Positions 10,275 through 20,919 of a stretch of DNA of 64,000 nucleotides are shown here, one piece after another; the stretch's first letter is position 1; the number at the start of each line of letters is the position of its first letter. This DNA is from Desulfolutivibrio sulfoxidireducens (lineage in GTDB: Bacteria > Desulfobacterota > Desulfovibrionia > Desulfovibrionales > Desulfovibrionaceae). The notes under the pieces were generated by a model, which saw only the letters and a list, made by a program, of their open reading frames with translations, made no database searches and was not told the origin of the DNA. The DNA lies in NCBI RefSeq assembly GCF_013376475.1, contig NZ_CP045508.1, forward strand, positions 3,942,001 to 4,006,000, in the 5' to 3' direction. Both the position numbers and the translations under genes were made by a program.

Positions 10275-12062
10275 GTGGCTTCCGTCATCCTCAAGGGCAT
10301 CCCCGTTTCGGCGGGCATCTCCATCGGCAAGGCCTTTTTCCTCAACAGGTCCGGCCATGGTCCCATCCCCCGCCAGACGCTGGCCCCGGAACTCTTCGAG
10401 CCGGAGTTGGCCCGGCTGGCCCGGGCCTTCGGCCAGTTCCGCGAGGAACTGGTCCAGGTGCGCGAACGCATCCCGACGGAACTGCGCGAACACGCCCACA
10501 TCATCGACTCGCACCTGATGATTCTGGACGATCCAAAGCTGCAGGGCGCGGCCGGGAACTACATCCGAACGCTTGGCATCAATGCCGAATGGGCCCTGGA
10601 AAAGGCCGTGGCCGATCTGCAACGGGCCTTCGAGGCCCTGGACAACCCCTATTTCCGGGACCGCATCCAGGACGTGCGCATGGTGTCCGACCGGGTCCAG
10701 GCCAGGCTGTCCGGCCAGACCGGGGACATCAAGGCCGTGCGGAACCGGGTGGTGCTCATGGCCGACGACCTTTCCCCGGCGGACACGGCGGCCATCGAGG
10801 TGGACAAGATCATGTCCGTGGTCACGGCCCAGGGCGGCAAGACCTCCCACACCGGCATCCTGGCCCGCACCCTGGGCATACCGGCGGTCATCGGGGTCAA
10901 CGACCTGGAGGAGCACGTCCGCGACGGGCGGCTGGTGGTGGTGGACGGCCTGCGCGGCTCGGTGCTGGTCGATCCCGACGAGGACGAACTGGCCAAGTTC
11001 ACCGACCTCAAATACCAGTTCGAGGCCTACCACGCCTCCATCATGCGCGGCTGCCACCTGCCCGGCGAGACCATCGACGGCTACCGGGTCAAGGTGAAGG
11101 CCAACATCGAGCTTCTCGAGGAGGTGGCGGCGGTCATCGACAACGGCGGCGAGGGCGTTGGCCTGTATCGCACGGAATATTCGTACATGAACCGCCGGAC
11201 CCTGCCCACCGAGGAGGAGCTCACCGAGGAATATTTCGAGCTGGCATCCATCATGTCCCCCAAAAAGGTGACCTTGCGCACCCTGGACGCCGGGGCGGAC
11301 AAGTTCATCGCCCTTTTGGGCAACCCCGATGAGCGCAACCCCGCCCTGGGGCTTCGGGCCATCCGCCTGTGCATGCACCACAAGGACCTGTTCAAGACCC
11401 AGCTTCGGGCCATCCTGCGGGCCTCGACGGTGGGCAACGTGTCGGTCATGTTCCCGATGATCTCCGGGCTGCGGGAGATTCGCCAGGCCATGAGCCTTTT
11501 GCGCACGGCCCAGTCGGAGCTCAGATACCAGGGGATGTCCTACGATCCGGAGATGCCTGTGGGCATCATGATGGAGTTGCCCTCGGCGGTGATGATTGCC
11601 GAGGTGCTGGCCCGCGAGGTGGATTTTTTCAGCATCGGCACCAACGATCTCATTCAATATTCCCTGGGCATCGACCGTACCAACCGGTACGTGTCGCACA
11701 TGTATCAGCCCCTGCATCCGGCCGTGGTGCGCAGCATCAAGCACATTGTGGACGCGGCCCATCAAGCCGGCATCGAGGTCAGTCTGTGCGGCGAGATGGC
11801 CTCGGACCCCTTTTGCGTGCCCATCCTCATGGGCATGCAGATCGACGCCATAAGCCTCAATCCCCAGGCCATCCCGGGAATCAAGCGCATCATCCGCCAG
11901 GCGACCATGGACGATTGCAAGAAGCTGCTCAAGGAGGTCCTTGAGAGCACCACCGTGGCTCGCACCAACCGTCTGGTTCGGGACACCATCTTCCAGAAGT
12001 TTCCCGATGAGCTCATGTTTTTCTCCTCGCTTTTGGACCAGGAGGAGGGCATGACGGGCTGA
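10275..12062 (+). CDS. ptsI: phosphoenolpyruvate-protein phosphotransferase (Enzyme I)
   Basis: Transfers phosphate from PEP to HPr. The protein is 595 residues, a typical EI length. The phosphohistidine is in [13 protein letters not shown] (His192); [28 protein letters not shown]-like [20 protein letters not shown] and the catalytic LCGEMASDP near the C-terminus complete the family pattern. It begins with GTG (GTGGCTTCC) eight bases after the HPr stop, so translation is probably coupled. With no sugar permease at hand, EI and HPr here more likely serve regulation or a partial EII encoded elsewhere. Confidence 0.94.
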
Positions 12063-12106
12063 CGCCCGCAGGGTCCGCCCGGCCTGTCCTTTCGATTGGG
12101 ACAATG

Positions 12107-12114
12107 CTATACCC
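12107..12114 (+). promoter_or_regulatory. possible extended -10 element before smpB
   Basis: TGCTATACC-type extended -10 (TG at 12107, TATACC at 12109-12114), about 50 bases before smpB. The -35 position is poor. Weak candidate. Confidence 0.2.
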
Positions 12115-12165
12115 TTTCCCGACGCCGCCACGCCTTTCCGGTTTGCGGCAAAGCCCCATGACGCC

Positions 12166-12633
12166 ATGAGCAAGACATCCCAGGGCGGCGAGAAGCTCAT
12201 CGCCCCCAACAAGAACGCCCGCCGGCTCTACGAACTTTTGGAGAGCCTAGAGGCCGGGCTGTGCCTGACCGGTTCCGAGGTGAAATCCCTTCGGGCCGGC
12301 AAGGTCAGTTTCAAGGACGGCTACGTCAAATTTACAAACGGCGAGGCCTGGCTCGTGGGCGTGCACATCGCGGAATACGAGAACGCGGGCTATTCCGGGC
12401 ACGAGCCGGAGCGGCCGCGCAAGCTCCTTTTGCACGCGGCGGAGATCCGGCATCTGCGCACCAAGGTGGAGCAGAAAGGCCTGACCGTGATCCCGGTGCG
12501 CATGTATTTCAAGAACGGCCGGATAAAGATCGAGATCGCCCTGGCCCGGGGCAAGAAGGTCCACGACCGCCGCGACGATTTGAAGGCCCGGGACATCGAC
12601 CGGGAAACGGCCCGGGAACTGGCTCGTTCCTGA
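12166..12633 (+). CDS. smpB: SsrA-binding protein SmpB
   Basis: Partner of tmRNA in rescue of stalled ribosomes. At 155 residues it has the family length and its motifs: [58 protein letters not shown], and the basic tail with [23 protein letters not shown], which enters the ribosome. No strong Shine-Dalgarno precedes the ATG, but the alignment leaves little room for another start. The glycolate-oxidase-like gene starts 2 bases after its stop, so translational coupling is likely although the functions are unrelated. The ssrA RNA gene was not seen in this window. Confidence 0.95.
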
Positions 12634-12635
12634 CC

Positions 12636-14030
12636 ATGGACGGTTCCCGGCAAAATCCGCTTCCCCCGGCCGCCCGCCGCTTCCTCTCCGACCTCTTTCC
12701 CGGCGAGGCCGCCGTGTTCGCCCCCGAGGAGACCTGCGTCTTCGGCACCGACGCCTCCCGCCGCCAGGCCATCCCCGCCGCCGTGGTCCGGCCGGAAACC
12801 GAAGAGCAGGTTCGCGAGCTTTTGCGCTTCGCCCACGCCGAACGCATCCCCATCCTCTCCCGGGGCCGGGGCACCAACACCGTTGGCGACTGCGTGCCCA
12901 CCGCCCCGGGCATCGTGGTCTCCACAGCCCGGTTCGCGGACATCCTGGAGATTTCCGAGGACGACTTCGTGGCCGTGTGCCGCCCCGGTCTGGTCACCGC
13001 CGACCTGCAAAAGGCCTTGGCAAAAAAACGCCTCTTCTATCCCCCGGACCCGGCCAGCGTGCGCTTCTCCAGCCTGGGCGGCAACGCGGCCACCTGCGCC
13101 GGGGGCATGCGCGCCCTGAAATACGGCGTCACCCGCGACTTCATCCTGGGCATCCGGGCCGTTTTGCCCGGCGGCGAGGTCATCGTCACCGGCGGCCGGA
13201 CCCACAAAAACGTGGCCGGCCTGGACCTGACCCGACTTCTGGTCGGCTCCGAGGGCACCCTGGCCTTTTTTACCGAAATCACGGCCAAGCTCCTGCCCCT
13301 GCCCGAGGCCACGGCCACGGCGCTTTGCGCCCACGCCGACCCCGACGCGGCCCTGACCGCGGCCGGCGACGTGTTCCGGGCCGGGATGCTGCCGGCGGCC
13401 ATGGAATTCGTGGACAGGACCTGCCTCGACGCCGTGGCCGCCATAACCCCCCTGCCCTGGAGCGGTCCGGCCGGGGCGGCCCTGCTGGTGCGCCTGGACG
13501 GCTCCGCCGACGCCGTGGCCGCCGACCTGGAGAAACTCGGCCGGGTCCTGGCCGAACGCTCCCCCCTGTTCGTGCACACGGCCCTGGACCAGGCCGGTCA
13601 GGACGCCCTGTGGGCGGTGCGCACCATGCTCAACCAGGCCTCGTTCCGGGTGGCCCCGGACAAGATAAGCGACGACGTCACCGTGCCCCGGGGGGCGCTA
13701 CGCCGGGTCGCCGCCGGAATCCGGGCCATCGCCGCCCGTGCCGGTCTGCCCGTCCTGGTCTTCGGGCATGTGGGCGACGGCAACCTGCACGTCAACATCA
13801 TGCACCGCGCCGATGACCCGGCCGAGCGCCACACGGCCCTGGCCGCCCGCGAGGAGATTCTCGACCTGGCCCTGTCGCTTCGCGGCACGCTTTCCGGCGA
13901 GCACGGCGTGGGCCTGTCCAAGCTGCCCTTCCTGGACCGCCAGATCGGCCCAACCGAGCGCGGACTTATGCGCCGGATCAAGGCCGTCTTCGACCCCCAC
14001 GGGATCATGAATCCCGGCAAGGCCTACTAG
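12636..14030 (+). CDS. glcD: FAD-linked oxidase, glycolate/D-lactate dehydrogenase GlcD-type subunit
   Basis: FAD-binding 2-hydroxyacid oxidase subunit (464 residues) of the GlcD/D-lactate dehydrogenase family. N-terminal FAD_binding_4: RPETEEQVRELLRFA, the flavin loop GRGTNTVGDCVPTAPG, and SLGGNAATCAGG. C-terminal cap: FGHVGDGNLHVNIMH, GTLSGEHGVGLSKLPFL and the final RRIKAVFDPHGIMNPGKAY. The electron partner would be the Fe-S protein at 16982, from which it is now separated by a 2.8-kb insert. The last 73 bases recur in diverged form at 16854-16926. Whether the substrate is glycolate or D-lactate is not decidable; D-lactate is plausible in a Desulfovibrio-like cell. Confidence 0.85.
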   Translation: MDGSRQNPLPPAARRFLSDLFPGEAAVFAPEETCVFGTDASRRQAIPAAVVRPETEEQVRELLRFAHAERIPILSRGRGTNTVGDCVPTAPGIVVSTARFADILEISEDDFVAVCRPGLVTADLQKALAKKRLFYPPDPASVRFSSLGGNAATCAGGMRALKYGVTRDFILGIRAVLPGGEVIVTGGRTHKNVAGLDLTRLLVGSEGTLAFFTEITAKLLPLPEATATALCAHADPDAALTAAGDVFRAGMLPAAMEFVDRTCLDAVAAITPLPWSGPAGAALLVRLDGSADAVAADLEKLGRVLAERSPLFVHTALDQAGQDALWAVRTMLNQASFRVAPDKISDDVTVPRGALRRVAAGIRAIAARAGLPVLVFGHVGDGNLHVNIMHRADDPAERHTALAAREEILDLALSLRGTLSGEHGVGLSKLPFLDRQIGPTERGLMRRIKAVFDPHGIMNPGKAY

Positions 14031-14083
14031 CCCCTCCCACGAAAGGCCCCTCTCGAGGCCCGCATGGGAGTCGCGAGCCACTC

Positions 14084-14605
14084 CTATCGGCTGTGCGTCT
14101 CCCGAGGCTCCATGTCGCCCCAAAGTCCCTTGGTCATGAGGCCGACGCTCACCGGTTCGAAGGAATCAAAGCAAATGTCGCGGACATGGGTCATTTCCCC
14201 CCAGAGCAGATCATAACCCTTGAGCCAGCGGAAGACCTTGATCCTTTCCCGCCAGCGGCGCTCTTCCTCCTCGGTTGCCGGCCGTTGCTCCCCGGCCCGG
14301 CCCATCAGGCGCACCCCGGGAGCCGTGTCGAACCGGCCCCGAAAAAGCGACGCCATGGAGCACCAGAACCCACCGTGGACGGCCAGGACGCAAATCCGCT
14401 GATCCTGGTCGAGGTTGCGCCGCATCTTTTTCGGGAATTTTTCGAAATAATAGGCCTTGCCCGGAGAGTGGAGGAACAGGGAGCCGATGGGGGTGACATG
14501 GGGCGATCCGTCCGGGTTCACCGTGGCCATGGCGCAGAAGCCCTTGGTTTTCAAGGCTCTCTCGACAACATCGCAAATGGTGTTCCAGTGCGGCGGGACA
14601 TCCAT
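14084..14605 (-). CDS. PPOX-fold flavin-binding protein
   Basis: A 173-residue split-barrel protein of the pyridoxamine-phosphate oxidase-like superfamily. Its N-terminal half carries GFCAMATVNPDGSPHVTPIGSLF and YYFEKFPKKMRRNL, the strands and loop that bind flavin phosphate. The C-terminal part is rich in Trp and charged residues and has no recognised motif. AAGGAG lies 6 bases before the ATG at 14605. It is one of three minus-strand genes in the lower-GC insert between glcD and glcF. It is not closely similar to the other PPOX-fold gene at 4845. Substrate unknown. Confidence 0.72.
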   Translation of the reverse strand: MDVPPHWNTICDVVERALKTKGFCAMATVNPDGSPHVTPIGSLFLHSPGKAYYFEKFPKKMRRNLDQDQRICVLAVHGGFWCSMASLFRGRFDTAPGVRLMGRAGEQRPATEEEERRWRERIKVFRWLKGYDLLWGEMTHVRDICFDSFEPVSVGLMTKGLWGDMEPRETHSR

Positions 14606-14686
14606 GGTTTTCTCCTTTGATCGCACCAGATGGCGCTGTTCTAAGCCGGCGTTGGAATCGCCGGCCCGATCTGATATTTTTCCGGG

Positions 14687-15985
14687 CTACTCCAGGCATT
14701 CATACGGGTTGCGAAAACTGACCCGGGCGCCCATGCGTTCAAAGAGTCGCAGGAGCCCATAGCGGGTCCGATGGAGGAAAATGAAATGAGGGTTGAGGTC
14801 CATGTGCGTTCGCATCTTCAACGCCACACACATGCGATGTTTTCCGGCCGGGATGAAATCTGGATTATCCCGAAAATCGAAGTACTTCTCCCGGTATAAC
14901 TGGGAAATCCACTGGCCTGTCGCCCGCAGTTCCTCGAAGATGCGCTCTGCGACTTCCCCGGAGACCGGGGCGGCGTTGCGCTGAAAGCCGGCAAACAGGG
15001 ACAGGTACTCGTTTTTGCCGCCGTTCATGGAGATGGCGGGCAGCTTGCTGTAGAGCGCGACGAAGAGCGGATCAAAATGCTTCACGCAGCCGAAATCCAC
15101 CAGCCCGACGGTCAGGTCGGGATGCACGAGGAAGTTGCCGGGGTTGGGATCGGCATGGATGGCATGCAACCGGTAGAGTTCGGATACAAAAAGGTCCTGG
15201 ATGGTTTGGGCCACCCGGTCCCGTTGCTCCTGGCCGGGGCCTGTTTCGAGCCAGTCGATCAGGGGCGTGCCGCTCAGGTATTCGGCGGTAAGCACCGTGT
15301 CGGAACTCAGGTCCTCGCGGCATTTCGGAATCAGGACCGGGTCCTGGCACAAGCCCGCCCGGAAAAAGGCCATGTTTTCCCGTTCGCGGCGGTAGTCGAC
15401 CTCCTCCAAAAGACGGGCCTCTATCTCCTCCAATACCGGCGCCAGGAGCCGATGGTCTGGCAACGCCCGTATTGCCGTTCGCAGCAGTTGGATGTCGGTT
15501 TCGATGGTCTCCCGGATACCGGGATATTGGAGCTTCACCGCCAATTCCTGGCCGTCCCGGGCAACGGCCCGGTGGACCTGCCCCAGGCTGGCGGCGGCGA
15601 AGGCCTGTCCATCGAAGTCCTTGAACAGTTCCTCGGGCGGTTTTCCCAGGGCGTTGCCCACAATCTTGCGGGCCAGGGCCCGATTGATGGGAGGCGCCTG
15701 GTGGCAGGACTTCTGGAGTTCTTCCGTGATTTCGGGCGGCAAGACATCGGCCTCCAAACTCAAGAGTTGGGCCGCCTTCAGAGCCGTTCCCCGCAAGAGG
15801 CCCAACCCCTGGAAAAGCAAGGCGGCGGACTCCCTGTTCAGGGCCTTTCTGGCTTCGATCCGCTTCCTGGGCGTCTGGAATGGCTTTCGAGAAAGGTAGG
15901 CCAGGGTCTTGCCACCCAGTTTGGTCGCTGTCTTGCCCACGCACAGCCCTCTTTCCCACTTACTTCTGGGAATGCCGTCGGCCAT
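14687..15985 (-). CDS. ABC1/UbiB-family atypical kinase
   Basis: A 432-residue member of the ABC1/AarF/ADCK family of atypical kinases or ATPases, usually linked to lipid or quinone metabolism. Seen: a KxGQ-like helix (GTALKAAQLLSLEADVLPPEI), the Ala-rich loop AFAAASLGQVHRA in place of a glycine loop, the nucleotide-binding Lys in AVKLQYPG, the catalytic HADPNPGNFLV and the metal-binding VDFGCVKHF. KAAQ in place of KxGQ is a departure worth noting. GGGAG precedes the ATG, which lies inside the end of the TetR gene (26-bp overlap), so the pair is one operon. UbiB itself is longer, about 540 residues. Confidence 0.85.
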   Translation of the reverse strand: MADGIPRSKWERGLCVGKTATKLGGKTLAYLSRKPFQTPRKRIEARKALNRESAALLFQGLGLLRGTALKAAQLLSLEADVLPPEITEELQKSCHQAPPINRALARKIVGNALGKPPEELFKDFDGQAFAAASLGQVHRAVARDGQELAVKLQYPGIRETIETDIQLLRTAIRALPDHRLLAPVLEEIEARLLEEVDYRRERENMAFFRAGLCQDPVLIPKCREDLSSDTVLTAEYLSGTPLIDWLETGPGQEQRDRVAQTIQDLFVSELYRLHAIHADPNPGNFLVHPDLTVGLVDFGCVKHFDPLFVALYSKLPAISMNGGKNEYLSLFAGFQRNAAPVSGEVAERIFEELRATGQWISQLYREKYFDFRDNPDFIPAGKHRMCVALKMRTHMDLNPHFIFLHRTRYGLLRLFERMGARVSFRNPYECLE

Positions 15986-16715
15986 TTTTTTCTCCCGTGG
16001 AGGGACGTTTCCCCTGCTGCATGATATCCATCCGATCTCGGAGCATATCCAGCCGGGCTATGACATGATGCCGGAAAAGGAAGGAGGCCATCTCCATGGC
16101 CTTGTTGAGAAGGTCCGCCCGGATGAAGCCGATGGCCAAATCCAGGCTTTTATCGATGAGGATCGTGGTGTTCTGGAATTGTTCCGAACGGTCTCGTATC
16201 CAGTAGTGCACAAGGCCGATGAAATAATCCCAGAAACACTGACACGTCAGTTCCAGAAAGACCTGTTCCGGTATTTCGCCGGCCTTGACGGCCGTCTCGA
16301 ACATGTCGGTGACAACATGAAAGAAGCGTGAGCGCAGAGGCCGCAAATACTGATAGTCCGAGGTCAGTGAGAAGGTCGCCGCCCCGAAGGTACCCACGAT
16401 GAATTCGCGGTCCGGCAGAAACCGCTCCAGCAAGGTTTCGAAAAAAGTCTGGAGTTGTTCCCGCAACTCGTAGGTATGAAGGTCCGGAATTGCCCGCAAC
16501 CGTTCGAGGCCCTCTTCCAACCGGTCCTCGTAATAGGCGTAGACGATGGCCTCCTTGGTGGGGAAATAGTTGTAGATGGTGGCGTCGCCGAGACCCGCCC
16601 CCCTGGCGATCTCCCGCATCGTCGCCCCCTTGAACCCTTTTTCGATCATGGCGTCGACGGCCGACCGGATTATCTGGTCCCGGTTCTCCCGTTTTCGATC
16701 TTCGCTGATCTTCAT
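15960..16715 (-). CDS. TetR-family transcriptional regulator
   Basis: A 251-residue TetR-type regulator. The N-terminal helix-turn-helix is typical (IIRSAVDAMIEKGFKGATMREIARGAGLGDATIYNYFPTKEAI in sense, residues about 15-58); the remaining helical ligand-binding domain is of unknown specificity. It overlaps the ABC1 kinase gene by 26 bp and so probably controls that operon and itself. Base composition is visibly poorer in G and C than flanking genes, and the upstream 100 bases are strikingly A/T-rich, in line with acquired DNA. No perfect palindromic operator was found by eye in that A/T-rich region. Confidence 0.85.
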   Translation of the reverse strand: MKISEDRKRENRDQIIRSAVDAMIEKGFKGATMREIARGAGLGDATIYNYFPTKEAIVYAYYEDRLEEGLERLRAIPDLHTYELREQLQTFFETLLERFLPDREFIVGTFGAATFSLTSDYQYLRPLRSRFFHVVTDMFETAVKAGEIPEQVFLELTCQCFWDYFIGLVHYWIRDRSEQFQNTTILIDKSLDLAIGFIRADLLNKAMEMASFLFRHHVIARLDMLRDRMDIMQQGKRPSTGEKNGRRHSQK

Positions 16716-16853
16716 GAACCACCCCTTAACGATAACTGCTATTAATTTAGATCAAATTTTATGGGTTTTATATGTAGCAATTTTTTTAAAATGGCAAGCT
16801 TTTTCTTGGTCAATTCGGATAGAAAAACAATCATGGTGGACTGGAGAAGCCGG

Positions 16854-16926
16854 GCGCGGGCTCATGCGCCGCATCAAGGCCGTTTTCGATCCCCACGGAG
16901 CCATGAACCCCGGCAAGGCCTACTGA
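16854..16926 (+). pseudogene. orphan 3' end of a second glcD
   Basis: These 73 bases align without gaps to 13958-14030, the 3' end of glcD: 62 of 73 identical. Counted as protein, 23 of the last 24 residues match (MNPGKAY end; Ile to Ala is the only change). Most differences are synonymous. Homology stops abruptly at 16854, and no glcD body precedes it. It ends 55 bases before the glcF-like gene, where a native glcD end would be expected, so it is probably the original gene end left behind when the 14.1-16.85 kb segment was inserted. Confidence 0.8.
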
Positions 16927-16981
16927 GGCGGGACGGGCCATCCCCGCGGCTTGACCCGGCGCGAAACGGCCCCATGTTGTC

Positions 16982-18202
16982 ATGAGCATGCCCACATCGC
17001 CACACCTCAACCCCGCGCCCCTCCCCGCGCCCCACGACTGCGTCCTGTGCGGCCGCTGCCTGGAGGTGTGCCCCCTTTTCGCCGCCACCGGCCGGGAGGA
17101 ACTCTCCCCACGGGCGAAATTCCACCTGCTCGCCCGTATGGCCCGAAACGACCCGGCCCTGCGCGAAAAGCCCGCCTCGGACCTGGCCGGGCTGTGCCTG
17201 TCCTGCGGCCGCTGCCAGAAGGCCTGCCCTCTCGGGCTGTGCGCCCCGGACGCGGTCGGCGCCCTGCGCGCCGCCCACCCCGGCTGGCCCGCCTTCCTGT
17301 GGGAGCAGTGGATCACCCGGGCCGGCCTCGTCTGGCCCCTGGCCGTCTCCCTGGGTCGCCTGGCCGGACACCCCACGTCCGCTTCCACTGGCCCGCTTGG
17401 CCGGGCCAGGGCCGCCCTGGCCGCCCTGGACCCAGGCCACGCCTCGCCATCCTGGCTCGTTCCCACCCGCTTCGACACCACATGCGCCGGACGCCGCGTG
17501 GCCCTTTTTCGCGGCTGCGTGGCCAGCCACGCCCGCACCGACTGGAGCCGGGCGGCTGTCTCCCTCCTTCGCGGCGTCGGCGTCACGCTCCTTGACGATC
17601 CGGGATTCGCCTGCTGCGGCGCGCCCCTGGGCCATGCCGGACTCCCCGACGCCCAAAACGCCGCCCGACAAAAAAACATCCAGGCCTGGCGGGAGACCGG
17701 ACGCCCGGCCCTGGCCGTGTTCTGCGCCTCCTGCCACCACGGCCTGTCGGCCTATCCGCCCGCCCTCTTCGCCCCCGGCGAGGCCGATGTCTGGCAAAAA
17801 TCCATCCTCCCCCTGGCCGCGCTCCTTGGCCAAACCACCTTCGAAAAAACCCCGGAGGCCCCAACGGCCATCCTGTACCATGCGCCCTGCCACGCGCCCC
17901 CGGGCGACCCCGATGCCGCCCTGCTCTCCCGCGCCCTGGACCAACCCCTCGCCCAAGGCCCCACCCCCTGCTGCGGCTTCGGCGGCCTCATGCAGCTCAC
18001 CGCCCCGACACTCGCGACCCGGACCGCCGCCGCATGCTGGCGGACACATAACCCGCCCCCCCAGGCCCACGTCCTGACCGCCTGCTCCGGCTGCGCCACC
18101 CAACTGGCGGCCACCAGCCCCCCCACCGTCACCGCCGGCCACTGGCTCGCCGTGGTGCGGTGCGAGGAAGCCCGGGGAGATGGGGAGGAGGCGCCCCCGT
18201 GA
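16982..18202 (+). CDS. glcF: (Fe-S)-binding oxidoreductase subunit, GlcF-like
   Basis: Iron-sulfur partner of the GlcD-type dehydrogenase (406 residues). Two 4Fe-4S motifs at the N-terminus (CVLCGRCLEVCP and CLSCGRCQKACP) pass electrons towards the quinone or another carrier. Two cysteine-rich CCG domains follow (GFACCGAPLGHAG with CASCHH, and CCGFGGLMQL with ACSGCATQL). The call as glycolate oxidase Fe-S subunit rests on family and on nearness to glcD. No good Shine-Dalgarno lies before ATG 16982; expression may have relied on coupling to the former glcD end now left as a fragment. A second ATG lies two codons downstream. Confidence 0.82.
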   Translation: MSMPTSPHLNPAPLPAPHDCVLCGRCLEVCPLFAATGREELSPRAKFHLLARMARNDPALREKPASDLAGLCLSCGRCQKACPLGLCAPDAVGALRAAHPGWPAFLWEQWITRAGLVWPLAVSLGRLAGHPTSASTGPLGRARAALAALDPGHASPSWLVPTRFDTTCAGRRVALFRGCVASHARTDWSRAAVSLLRGVGVTLLDDPGFACCGAPLGHAGLPDAQNAARQKNIQAWRETGRPALAVFCASCHHGLSAYPPALFAPGEADVWQKSILPLAALLGQTTFEKTPEAPTAILYHAPCHAPPGDPDAALLSRALDQPLAQGPTPCCGFGGLMQLTAPTLATRTAAACWRTHNPPPQAHVLTACSGCATQLAATSPPTVTAGHWLAVVRCEEARGDGEEAPP

Positions 18203-18278
18203 TCTCCCTGGCCGCTTCGGAAAGGGGATTGTGAGGGAGACGCAAAAAGCATACATGAAAGAAAAGGATTTTCAGACG

Positions 18279-18953
18279 ATGAAAGAACCGTTCATCCTGT
18301 CCCCATCCCTTTTGTCCGCCGATTTCGGCCGCCTCGCCGAGGAGCTTGACGCCCTGGAAGATGCGGGCCTGACCTGGGTGCACCTCGACGTCATGGACGG
18401 CCTGTTCGTGCCCAACATCACCTTCGGCCCGCCCATCATCAAGCGGCTGCGCCAGAAAAGCCGCCTGTTTTTCGACACCCACCTGATGATCGAGCGGCCC
18501 GAACGCTACCTGGCCGAGTTCCGCGACGCCGGGGCCGACCTCATCTGCGTCCACGCCGAGGCCACGGCGCATCTGGAACGGGCCTGCGCCGAAATCGCCC
18601 GGCTCGGGGCCAGACCCGCCGTGGCCCTCAACCCGGCCACCCCGCTTTCGGCCGTGGAATACCTCCTGCCGCAACTGGACATGGTGCTGGTGATGAGCGT
18701 CAATCCCGGCTTCGGCGGCCAGTCCTTCATCCCCTTTTGCATGGACAAGATCCGCGACCTGCGGGCCATGATCCGGAAACGCGGACTCGTAACGCACATC
18801 CAGGTGGACGGCGGGGTCACCCCGGACAACACTCCCGCGCTTCTGGCCGCCGGAGCCGACATCCTGGTCTCCGGGTCGGCCTTTTTCGGCCATCCTCCCT
18901 ATGGGGAGCGGTTAAGGACCTTTTATGCGGCGGCTCGAGCAGAATCGACCTGA
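18279..18953 (+). CDS. rpe: ribulose-phosphate 3-epimerase
   Basis: Interconverts ribulose 5-phosphate and xylulose 5-phosphate in the pentose phosphate pathway. A 224-residue TIM barrel with the family motifs ILSPSLLSADFGRL, HLDVMDGLFVPNITFGP (catalytic Asp and metal ligands), DTHLMIERPE, MSVNPGFGGQSFIP and the second catalytic Asp in QVDGGVTPDN. AAGGA lies before ATG 18279; an in-frame ATG at 18255 would add 8 residues but has no site at the right distance. Its last 29 bases overlap the start of the hybrid kinase gene. Confidence 0.94.
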   Translation: MKEPFILSPSLLSADFGRLAEELDALEDAGLTWVHLDVMDGLFVPNITFGPPIIKRLRQKSRLFFDTHLMIERPERYLAEFRDAGADLICVHAEATAHLERACAEIARLGARPAVALNPATPLSAVEYLLPQLDMVLVMSVNPGFGGQSFIPFCMDKIRDLRAMIRKRGLVTHIQVDGGVTPDNTPALLAAGADILVSGSAFFGHPPYGERLRTFYAAARAEST

Positions 18954-20919
18954 AGGGGACGGACCGGACTCCCGGCCCCCGCCTGATCCGGACCGCGTGG
19001 ACGAACGTCTCGTGCGGCTGACCTCCATGATGGAGGCCCTGGACGAGCACATCGCCTATGTGGACGCCGGGGGCGTGGTGCGGGAGATCAACCGCCGATT
19101 TCTCGATTTCCTCGGCCGGCCCCGGGAAGCGGTCATGGGCAGGGAACTGGCGGTCCTTGGCCTGGACACCGAAAACTGCCAGACCAGCGCCTTTTTCGAG
19201 CTGTTTCGCAAGGGTGCGCTCACCTCCCCGGTCGCGGTCAACCAGCGCCTGGGCGAAGCCGACGTGGCCATCCGCATCCAGCCCGTGCTCAGGCCCGGCC
19301 AGGGCGAGGATACCTTCGAGGGCATCATCCTCTCGGTCATCGACGTCACCCCGCTGGTCGAGGCCAAACGCTCGGTGGAACGGGAGAAGGCCTTTCTGGA
19401 GCAGGTCCTGGACATCGCCGGGGCGGCCATCTGCATCGTCAACCTCGACGGGCTGATCACCACGGTCAATGGCGAATTCACGGCCATCACCGGCTATACC
19501 CGGGAGATGGCCCTGGGCCGGCCGCGCGACGAACTGCTTCGCGGCGAGGAGACCTCCCCCGGGCGTCCGGACGCCTCCGGCCCGGAACCCTCCAAACACG
19601 AATGCCGGATCAGGACCGCCGCCGGGAAGGAGATCACCATCCTGCGCAACGCCGCGCCGCTGCGCGACGTCCACGGCGATCCCGTGGGCAGCATCGAATC
19701 TTTCGTGGACATCTCCGAGATCGTGCGCGCCAGGACCGACGCCGAACAGGCCAGCCGCATGAAGAGCATGTTCCTGGCCAACATGAGCCACGAGATTCGC
19801 ACGCCCTTAAATGCCCTCATCGGCATCCCCCAGCTTCTGGCCCGCACCGAGATCACCCCCGAACAGCACGAATACGTGGAAACCATGCGCGCCACGGGAA
19901 GCGCCCTGCTGAACATCGTCAACGACATCCTGGACATCTCCAAGATCGAGGCCGGCCGCATGGAGATCGTCGCCGGACCCGTGGACCTGGGCCGGCTTCT
20001 GGCCGAGGCCGTTCACCTCATGTCCGCCCCGGCGACGGAGAAGGGTCTGGCCCTGACCTGGAGCATGGACCCGGATCTGCCCCTGATCCTGGAGACGGAC
20101 CCCTTCCGGTTGCGCCAGATTCTGCTGAACCTGTTGTCCAACGCGGTCAAATTCACCGATTCCGGGAAGGTGGGCCTGTCCGCGACGCTCTCGCCGGACG
20201 AGACCAGCGTCAGATTCCAGGTGACCGATACCGGCCCGGGCATTGCCCGGGATGACACGGAGCATGTTTTCGAGCCGTTTTACCAGGCCGACGGTTCCGT
20301 CACCCGCCGTCACGGCGGGACGGGACTTGGGCTGTCCATCTCCCGGAGACTGGCCATCCTGCTCGGCGCGCCGGATCTGTTTTTGCGTAGCGAGCCCGGC
20401 CGGGGCTGCGCCTTTTTTTTCGACCTGCCCCTGCGCTCCACCGCCCCGGACCCCGGGAACGAGCCCCTGGACGCGCCGGACGACGAGCCCTCCGCCGACG
20501 AGGCCGCACGCGCCGATCTCTCCGCGCTGCGGGTCCTGGTGGCCGAGGACAACGACTTCAACCGGTTCTTGCTGGGCAAGATACTCGACAAACTGGGGGT
20601 CTGCGAAACCGCGTTCGCGGCGGACGGAGAGGGGGCCGTGGAGATGGTCCTGGAGCGGGCCGCGGCGGGCCAACCCTTCGACGTCCTGTTCATCGACCTG
20701 CGCATGCCGGGACTGGATGGCGCCTCGGCCGCCAGGCGGCTTCGCCGGGCCGGAATCGTCACGCCCGTGGTGGCCCTGACCGCCCAGGCCATGGCCCGGG
20801 ACGCCGCGCTGTGCCGCGAGGCCGGCATGGACTATTTTTTCTCCAAACCGTATCGCATCCGAGATATTGAAAAGGTGCTGACCACCGTGGCCGCCAGCAG
20901 GCAAGGAGCTTGGCCATGA
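18925..20919 (+). CDS. hybrid sensor histidine kinase (PAS-PAS-HisKA-HATPase-REC)
   Basis: Cytoplasmic hybrid kinase of 664 residues with no membrane segment. Two PAS-like sensor domains (about 30-145 and 160-265) precede HisKA (His289 in [15 protein letters not shown]), HATPase (LLNLLSNAVKF, DTGPGIARD, GGTGLGLSIS) and a C-terminal receiver with the phospho-Asp in FIDLRMPGLDG (about residue 590). AAGGA lies 8 bases before the ATG, inside rpe. A stand-alone Hpt gene follows with an ATGA overlap, so the likely phosphorelay is kinase His, receiver Asp, Hpt His, then an unlinked regulator. Confidence 0.9.
   Translation: MRRLEQNRPEGDGPDSRPPPDPDRVDERLVRLTSMMEALDEHIAYVDAGGVVREINRRFLDFLGRPREAVMGRELAVLGLDTENCQTSAFFELFRKGALTSPVAVNQRLGEADVAIRIQPVLRPGQGEDTFEGIILSVIDVTPLVEAKRSVEREKAFLEQVLDIAGAAICIVNLDGLITTVNGEFTAITGYTREMALGRPRDELLRGEETSPGRPDASGPEPSKHECRIRTAAGKEITILRNAAPLRDVHGDPVGSIESFVDISEIVRARTDAEQASRMKSMFLANMSHEIRTPLNALIGIPQLLARTEITPEQHEYVETMRATGSALLNIVNDILDISKIEAGRMEIVAGPVDLGRLLAEAVHLMSAPATEKGLALTWSMDPDLPLILETDPFRLRQILLNLLSNAVKFTDSGKVGLSATLSPDETSVRFQVTDTGPGIARDDTEHVFEPFYQADGSVTRRHGGTGLGLSISRRLAILLGAPDLFLRSEPGRGCAFFFDLPLRSTAPDPGNEPLDAPDDEPSADEAARADLSALRVLVAEDNDFNRFLLGKILDKLGVCETAFAADGEGAVEMVLERAAAGQPFDVLFIDLRMPGLDGASAARRLRRAGIVTPVVALTAQAMARDAALCREAGMDYFFSKPYRIRDIEKVLTTVAASRQGAWP

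Follow-up and report, generated by a model that had tools for sequence, protein, structure and literature searches.

Results

A repeated glcD tail brackets three genes. The window, by which we mean the whole 64,000-nucleotide stretch of Desulfolutivibrio sulfoxidireducens DNA that was analysed, comes from a genome (here G000) that consists of one contig of 4,155,851 bases and is 99.96% complete by tool estimate. The interval, searched against this genome, returned a single genomic place. There, glcD is followed by three genes on the opposite strand, by a second copy of its own 3' end, and then by glcF (Table 1).

Table 1. Features of the glcD-glcF interval, in window coordinates
Feature	Position	Strand	Evidence
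glcD, FAD-linked oxidase, intact	12636..14030	+	Pfam FAD-oxidase_C, FAD_binding_4
Working glcD tail, first copy of the repeat, stop TAG	13954..14030	+	Repeat search, alignment
PPOX-fold protein, cassette gene	14084..14626	-	Pfam PNPOx_N
ABC1-type kinase, cassette gene	14687..15985	-	Pfam ABC1
TetR-type regulator, cassette gene	15960..16715	-	Pfam TetR_N, TetR_C_23
A/T-rich border upstream of tetR	16716..16849	.	G002 alignment to about 16827, 69% over 111 bases
Orphan glcD tail (displaced, probably dead), stop TGA	16850..16926	+	Repeat search, alignment
glcF, Fe-S subunit, ancestral neighbour downstream of glcD	16982..18202	+	Pfam CCG, Fer4-type; gene order in relatives

One direct repeat stood out in a repeat search of positions 12000-19000 (13954-14028 and 16850-16924, 75 nt, 87% identity); the remaining repeats there were at most 34 nt long and at most 86% identical. 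The initial annotation had reported that the last 73 bases of glcD (13958-14030) recur at 16854-16926 with 62/73 identity and mostly synonymous changes, and our alignment agrees on both counts. Of the 11 mismatches, seven fall at third codon positions, two make up a single Ile-to-Ala codon, and two more distinguish the stop codons, TAG and TGA. The wider tail block is identical at 65 of 77 positions, with a longest exact run of 16 bases, and the codon just left of the 73-base block differs between the copies (GAG versus GGG). The orphan tail retains the frame RGLMRRIKAVFDPHGAMNPGKAY and closes on TGA. It ends at 16926, and glcF starts at 16982, leaving the 55 bases between them that had been described. 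The reading frame of glcD is open into a tail that is conserved with relatives, such that the target gene is regenerated in frame, while the displaced 3' fragment sits at the far end of the insert in the same orientation as the glcD tail.

Cassette genes and composition. Pfam matches agree with the earlier assignment of the three minus-strand genes between the tails to a PPOX-fold protein, an ABC1 kinase, and a TetR regulator. The G+C fraction of positions 14031-16853 is 0.583, versus 0.651 for the whole window, and values as low or lower occur in 4% of 612 overlapping window stretches of the same length. By gene, the values are 0.61 (PPOX), 0.606 (ABC1), and 0.556 (TetR), and the A/T-rich border (16716-16853) has a G+C fraction of 0.348. 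The drop in G+C that had been noted, border included, is real and mild.

TetR and ABC1 genes were neighbors, with order and strand conserved, at all eight loci examined in relatives (seven in family genomes, the eighth in a MAG titled Desulfobacterium). ABC1 matches at 1e-60 occur in 9 of 199 family genomes, two of them within the window's genus and seven outside it. Within the 12-13 kb read at each of the eight loci there was no glcD match, nor a PPOX match at 1e-3. At six of the eight, inspection by eye shows a similar small protein, about 163-183 residues long, next in line instead of PPOX. Because the two genes are adjacent at every locus examined, we regard the cassette core as a chromosomal gene pair that occurs at several locations in the family, and not as a phage or transposon gene set.

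Outside the genus, glcF mostly follows glcD. A GlcD search matched 57 of 59 genomes, G000 counted, and the 3' side of glcD was read in 33 of the 56 others, leaving out 23 with weaker best matches. In 23 outgroup genomes glcF lies within about 160 bases of glcD; in three it is further away (0.9, 3.1, and 5.6 kb in G023, G030, and G004), and in five (G029, G007, G048, G035, and G040) it is absent from the stretch fetched behind glcD; the other two of the 33 are the congeners described below. In genus g26, which the glcD tree places as sister to the window's genus, glcF is directly behind glcD in 12 further genomes, and one more record ended inside glcD. An uninterrupted glcD-glcF pair, which the initial annotation had proposed as the empty site to look for, is therefore present in 35 outgroup genomes (23 plus 12 from g26). 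This comparison of gene order identifies the cassette as a real insertion.

Two patterns that had been named as speaking against insertion were not seen. A full second glcD before glcF has no room in the 35 outgroup genomes. An orphan tail kept in distant relatives is absent from the eight outgroup stretches in which glcF is separated or unseen: a motif scan of the 2 to 8 kb behind glcD at these loci found no second glcD tail, and the same scan did detect the decayed tail in the congener G002, described below.

We therefore favor insertion with displacement of the native tail, to which we assign a probability of about 75%, a figure that excludes the route of entry. Under this reading, a tetR-ABC1-PPOX cassette would have entered the space between glcD and glcF in an ancestor of the genus, precisely where glcD ends. 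The glcD frame would have stayed intact or been restored, and an extra copy of the final 73-77 bases of the gene would have remained next to glcF, to drift as noncoding DNA.

One congener shares the cassette and the other lacks it. Two congeners, G001 and G002, were compared with G000. In G002, PPOX, ABC1, and TetR genes lie behind glcD in the same order and on the same strand and are followed by a remnant of the glcD tail. The G000 and G002 cassettes are 82.6% identical over 2,672 aligned bases, slightly more diverged than the left flank (86.5%), and glcD is 85.4% identical; differences at fourfold sites amount to 0.38 (PPOX), 0.33 (ABC1), 0.23 (TetR), and 0.22 (glcD). At these levels of identity, the sequences give no sign of a recent cassette transfer between the two species. 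The left edge of the repeat falls at about the same base in both genomes, so a single event would have made both orphan tails. Behind the orphan, G002 has a gene for a 270-residue protein and a transporter gene, with glcF about 30 kb further on. From their reading frames, we take the genes beyond the orphan to be transporter, secF-, corA-, recA-, and alaS-like genes together with phage-like genes.

In G001, the transporter gene is directly behind glcD, with neither cassette nor orphan tail between them, and the genome has no ABC1 match at 1e-60. Its glcF is on a different contig from glcD, behind the same phage-like genes as in G002; in both congeners, glcF directly follows what we take to be phage tail-like genes. 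G001 and G002 are sisters: their GlcD proteins are 93% identical, versus 84-85% with G000, and the tree agrees. The 5' side of glcD has also changed in G001, where GlcD has a different sequence over roughly its first 13 residues (L033 reverse complement, about 44-1465), and the usual place of smpB is taken by a gene that we presume to encode an HD-domain-like protein.

The insertion reading of the initial annotation, with the native tail left beside glcF, thus stands, and to it can be added that the insertion is old, because G002 carries the same cassette and an orphan with the same left edge. Most simply, the insertion would predate the split between G000 and G002, and one loss must then be assumed, since G001 has neither element. 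We infer a single insertion before the species split and a later loss in G001. The simplest history would begin with the insertion, before the three congeners separated; a rearrangement in the G001/G002 line would next have taken glcF away from glcD, and G001 would last have lost the cassette and orphan. Recombination between the two tails was considered as the means of this loss and rejected; G001 has a working-type tail that ends in TAG.

The DNA to the left of the orphan differs between the two carriers, with a spacer of about 200 bases (207) in G002 versus fewer than 30 in G000. It bears on an alternative hypothesis, in which glcF was formerly preceded by a complete second glcD that was deleted except for its last 73-77 bases. 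Such a deletion would account for the resemblance of both tails to functional glcD ends, and the G002 spacer does align weakly and collinearly with the part of glcD that precedes the tail (score 40, equaled in 6 of 300 shuffles; against the whole glcD gene, 34 of 300 shuffles were as good). However, tandem glcD copies were seen in no relative, and a stretch of glcD as old as the orphan would be expected to retain close to 88% identity (the G002 orphan matches at 61/69), which the spacer does not. We consider deletion improbable. No integrase match was found in nine translated stretches of at least 35 residues around the spacer.

The orphan tail decays unlike the working tail. Over 23 codons compared between G000 and G002, the orphan shows 4, 4, and 3 differences at first, second, and third positions, respectively, and the working tail shows 0, 0, and 4 (p 0.026 by Fisher's test, on small numbers); set against the whole glcD gene, the excess at first and second positions reaches only p 0.063. 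Orphan divergence (11/69) is near the fourfold-site divergence of glcD (58/262). Because the orphan's differences are spread evenly over codon positions and those of the working tail fall only at third positions, the orphan is best read, from these comparisons, as a dead fragment that has drifted since the species split. Selection on the orphan in G000 was considered and rejected; its differences, few as they are, have no codon-position bias. Its position beside glcF argues that the orphan is the native glcD tail.

Three codons separate the two kinds of tail: they read GGA, GAC, and TAG in each of the three working tails but GGG, GAT, and TGA in the two orphans. At the first of these, 5 of 13 tails from g26 have GGG and none has GGA, and GGA therefore looks derived. 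At GGC, ATC, and AAT, the G002 orphan agrees with the G002 working tail, which is unexpected under a simple two-lineage history and may reflect gene conversion or chance. Tail-to-tail matches (58-63/72) span much the same range as those with the best g26 outgroup tail (57-64/72), and over 72 bases this comparison does not tell whether the working tail came in with the insert.

The bases behind the orphan are no more similar to those behind the working tails than shuffled sequences are. A further explanation, that about 75 bp were copied locally at a broken end during repair and the cassette was captured between the copies, would produce a duplication at the insertion point and the one clean left edge common to the two species. 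It would make the end of the copy right at the stop codon a coincidence, though decay past the stop may mask a longer copy, and we judge it quite unlikely.

Rates and trees of glcF. Pairwise divergence of glcF relative to glcD is 2.1-3.8x in three within-genus pairs versus 0.45-1.12x in 78 g26 pairs. The corresponding branch-length ratio flips between genera (0.53 in g26, 2.19 in g37, and 2.49 in the window's genus). We rejected the split from glcD as the cause of a faster glcF: in g37 the ratio is 2.19 despite glcF lying within about 160 bases of glcD (five genomes), so a high ratio does not require a split. A foreign origin of glcF was set aside as well. FastTree set glcF apart from g26, but a mixture-model quick tree joins it to g26 (support 90, not starred), and the same method places glcD with g26 (support 95, starred). 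The glcD and glcF trees covered 36 genomes; L036, L039, and L088, in which both genes are present, were filtered out.

Route of entry. The initial annotation saw no integrase, and our wider searches bear this out: Pfam found no integrase gene inside the element, and the nearest PF00589 match in G000, one of 11 in the genome, is about 125 kb off. In G002 the nearest is about 157 kb away, and the single PF00239 match in G000 lies about 0.5 Mb from the locus. The window contains no tRNA genes, positions 12000-19000 have no Rfam matches, and promoter and terminator scans of 13900-17100 returned no more than expected by chance.

No bare glcD tail was found in the phage or viral records examined. 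The stricter of two viral-contig patterns gave no matches, and the looser gave two, both within longer glcD-type reading frames and one of them in a provirus record. The IMG/VR provirus record (L098) opens with the greater part of a glcD-like gene, behind which lie what we take to be phage-type genes, and it contains no second tail. A phage search gave seven weak matches; the five inspected all lie in long glcD-like frames, and the other two are annotated as glcD. In a plasmid search, every ABC1 and TetR match was below 60% identity. No report of glcD as an integration site was found in the limited literature collection searched.

The anatomy of the locus resembles the regenerated gene end and displaced fragment that integrases leave. 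We tentatively postulate, at somewhat less than even odds, that the incoming DNA may have brought the working tail with it by gene-end integration, as in the icd/e14 case, and that the integrase has since been lost. Against this count the distance to the nearest integrase match, the lack of a second tail in the eight outgroup stretches and of a bare tail in the phage and viral records examined, and the occurrence of the TetR-ABC1 cargo at other chromosomal places in relatives. Alternatively, homologous recombination could have introduced a relative's cassette together with its glcD tail, through a single crossover in the tail or through end repair, with no integrase involved. The lack of an integrase near the insert in both G000 and G002 is consistent with this route, and the tails are alike enough (58-63/72) to be compatible with a donor in or close to the genus. 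The homology of 73-77 bp is short for such an entry, however, and no donor was found; the seven ABC1-bearing family genomes outside the genus have no glcD in the 12-kb stretches read. We regard this route as rather unlikely.

Discussion

The locus is a true, old insertion with a displaced gene tail, and insertion with a displaced gene fragment is an already known kind of event. What it offers is a neat, if unremarkable, relic of DNA insertion whose position on a tree can be fixed: the insertion broke a widely kept gene pair, and the decay of the displaced fragment can be compared in two species. We also speculate, with considerable doubt, that the 3' end of glcD could be the attachment site of an integrating element in the family for which we found no description, and of which the cassette, splitting glcD from glcF, would be a fixed survivor without its integrase. 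If the site is real, it adds a protein-gene target and would aid in finding the element. Otherwise, the change is a routine one of gene order.

The cassette shares two genes, their order, and their strand with the TetR-ABC1 pair of relatives, but there the pair stands without glcD and without PPOX nearby. Among islands in tRNA and tmRNA genes, as outlined for Islander (PMC4383910), a regenerated target and a displaced fragment mark the two ends, as they do here. Unlike those islands, the present insert has a protein gene as its target, lacks an integrase, and shows no attachment core. Since an integrase was looked for and not found, we liken the locus to an integrase-mediated insertion rather than filing it as one.

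The closest protein-gene parallel is that of e14 in icd of E. coli K-12, where the tail left behind, icdC, spans 165 bp and carries 12 exchanges, with two conservative replacements (PMC11148124); the tail described here has 73 bp, 11 exchanges, and one replacement. In both, the 3' end of a protein gene is doubled, the changes are mostly silent, the frame is intact, and the insert lies between the copies. They differ in cargo: e14 is a prophage, whereas the glcD-glcF interval holds three ordinary genes and no integrase.
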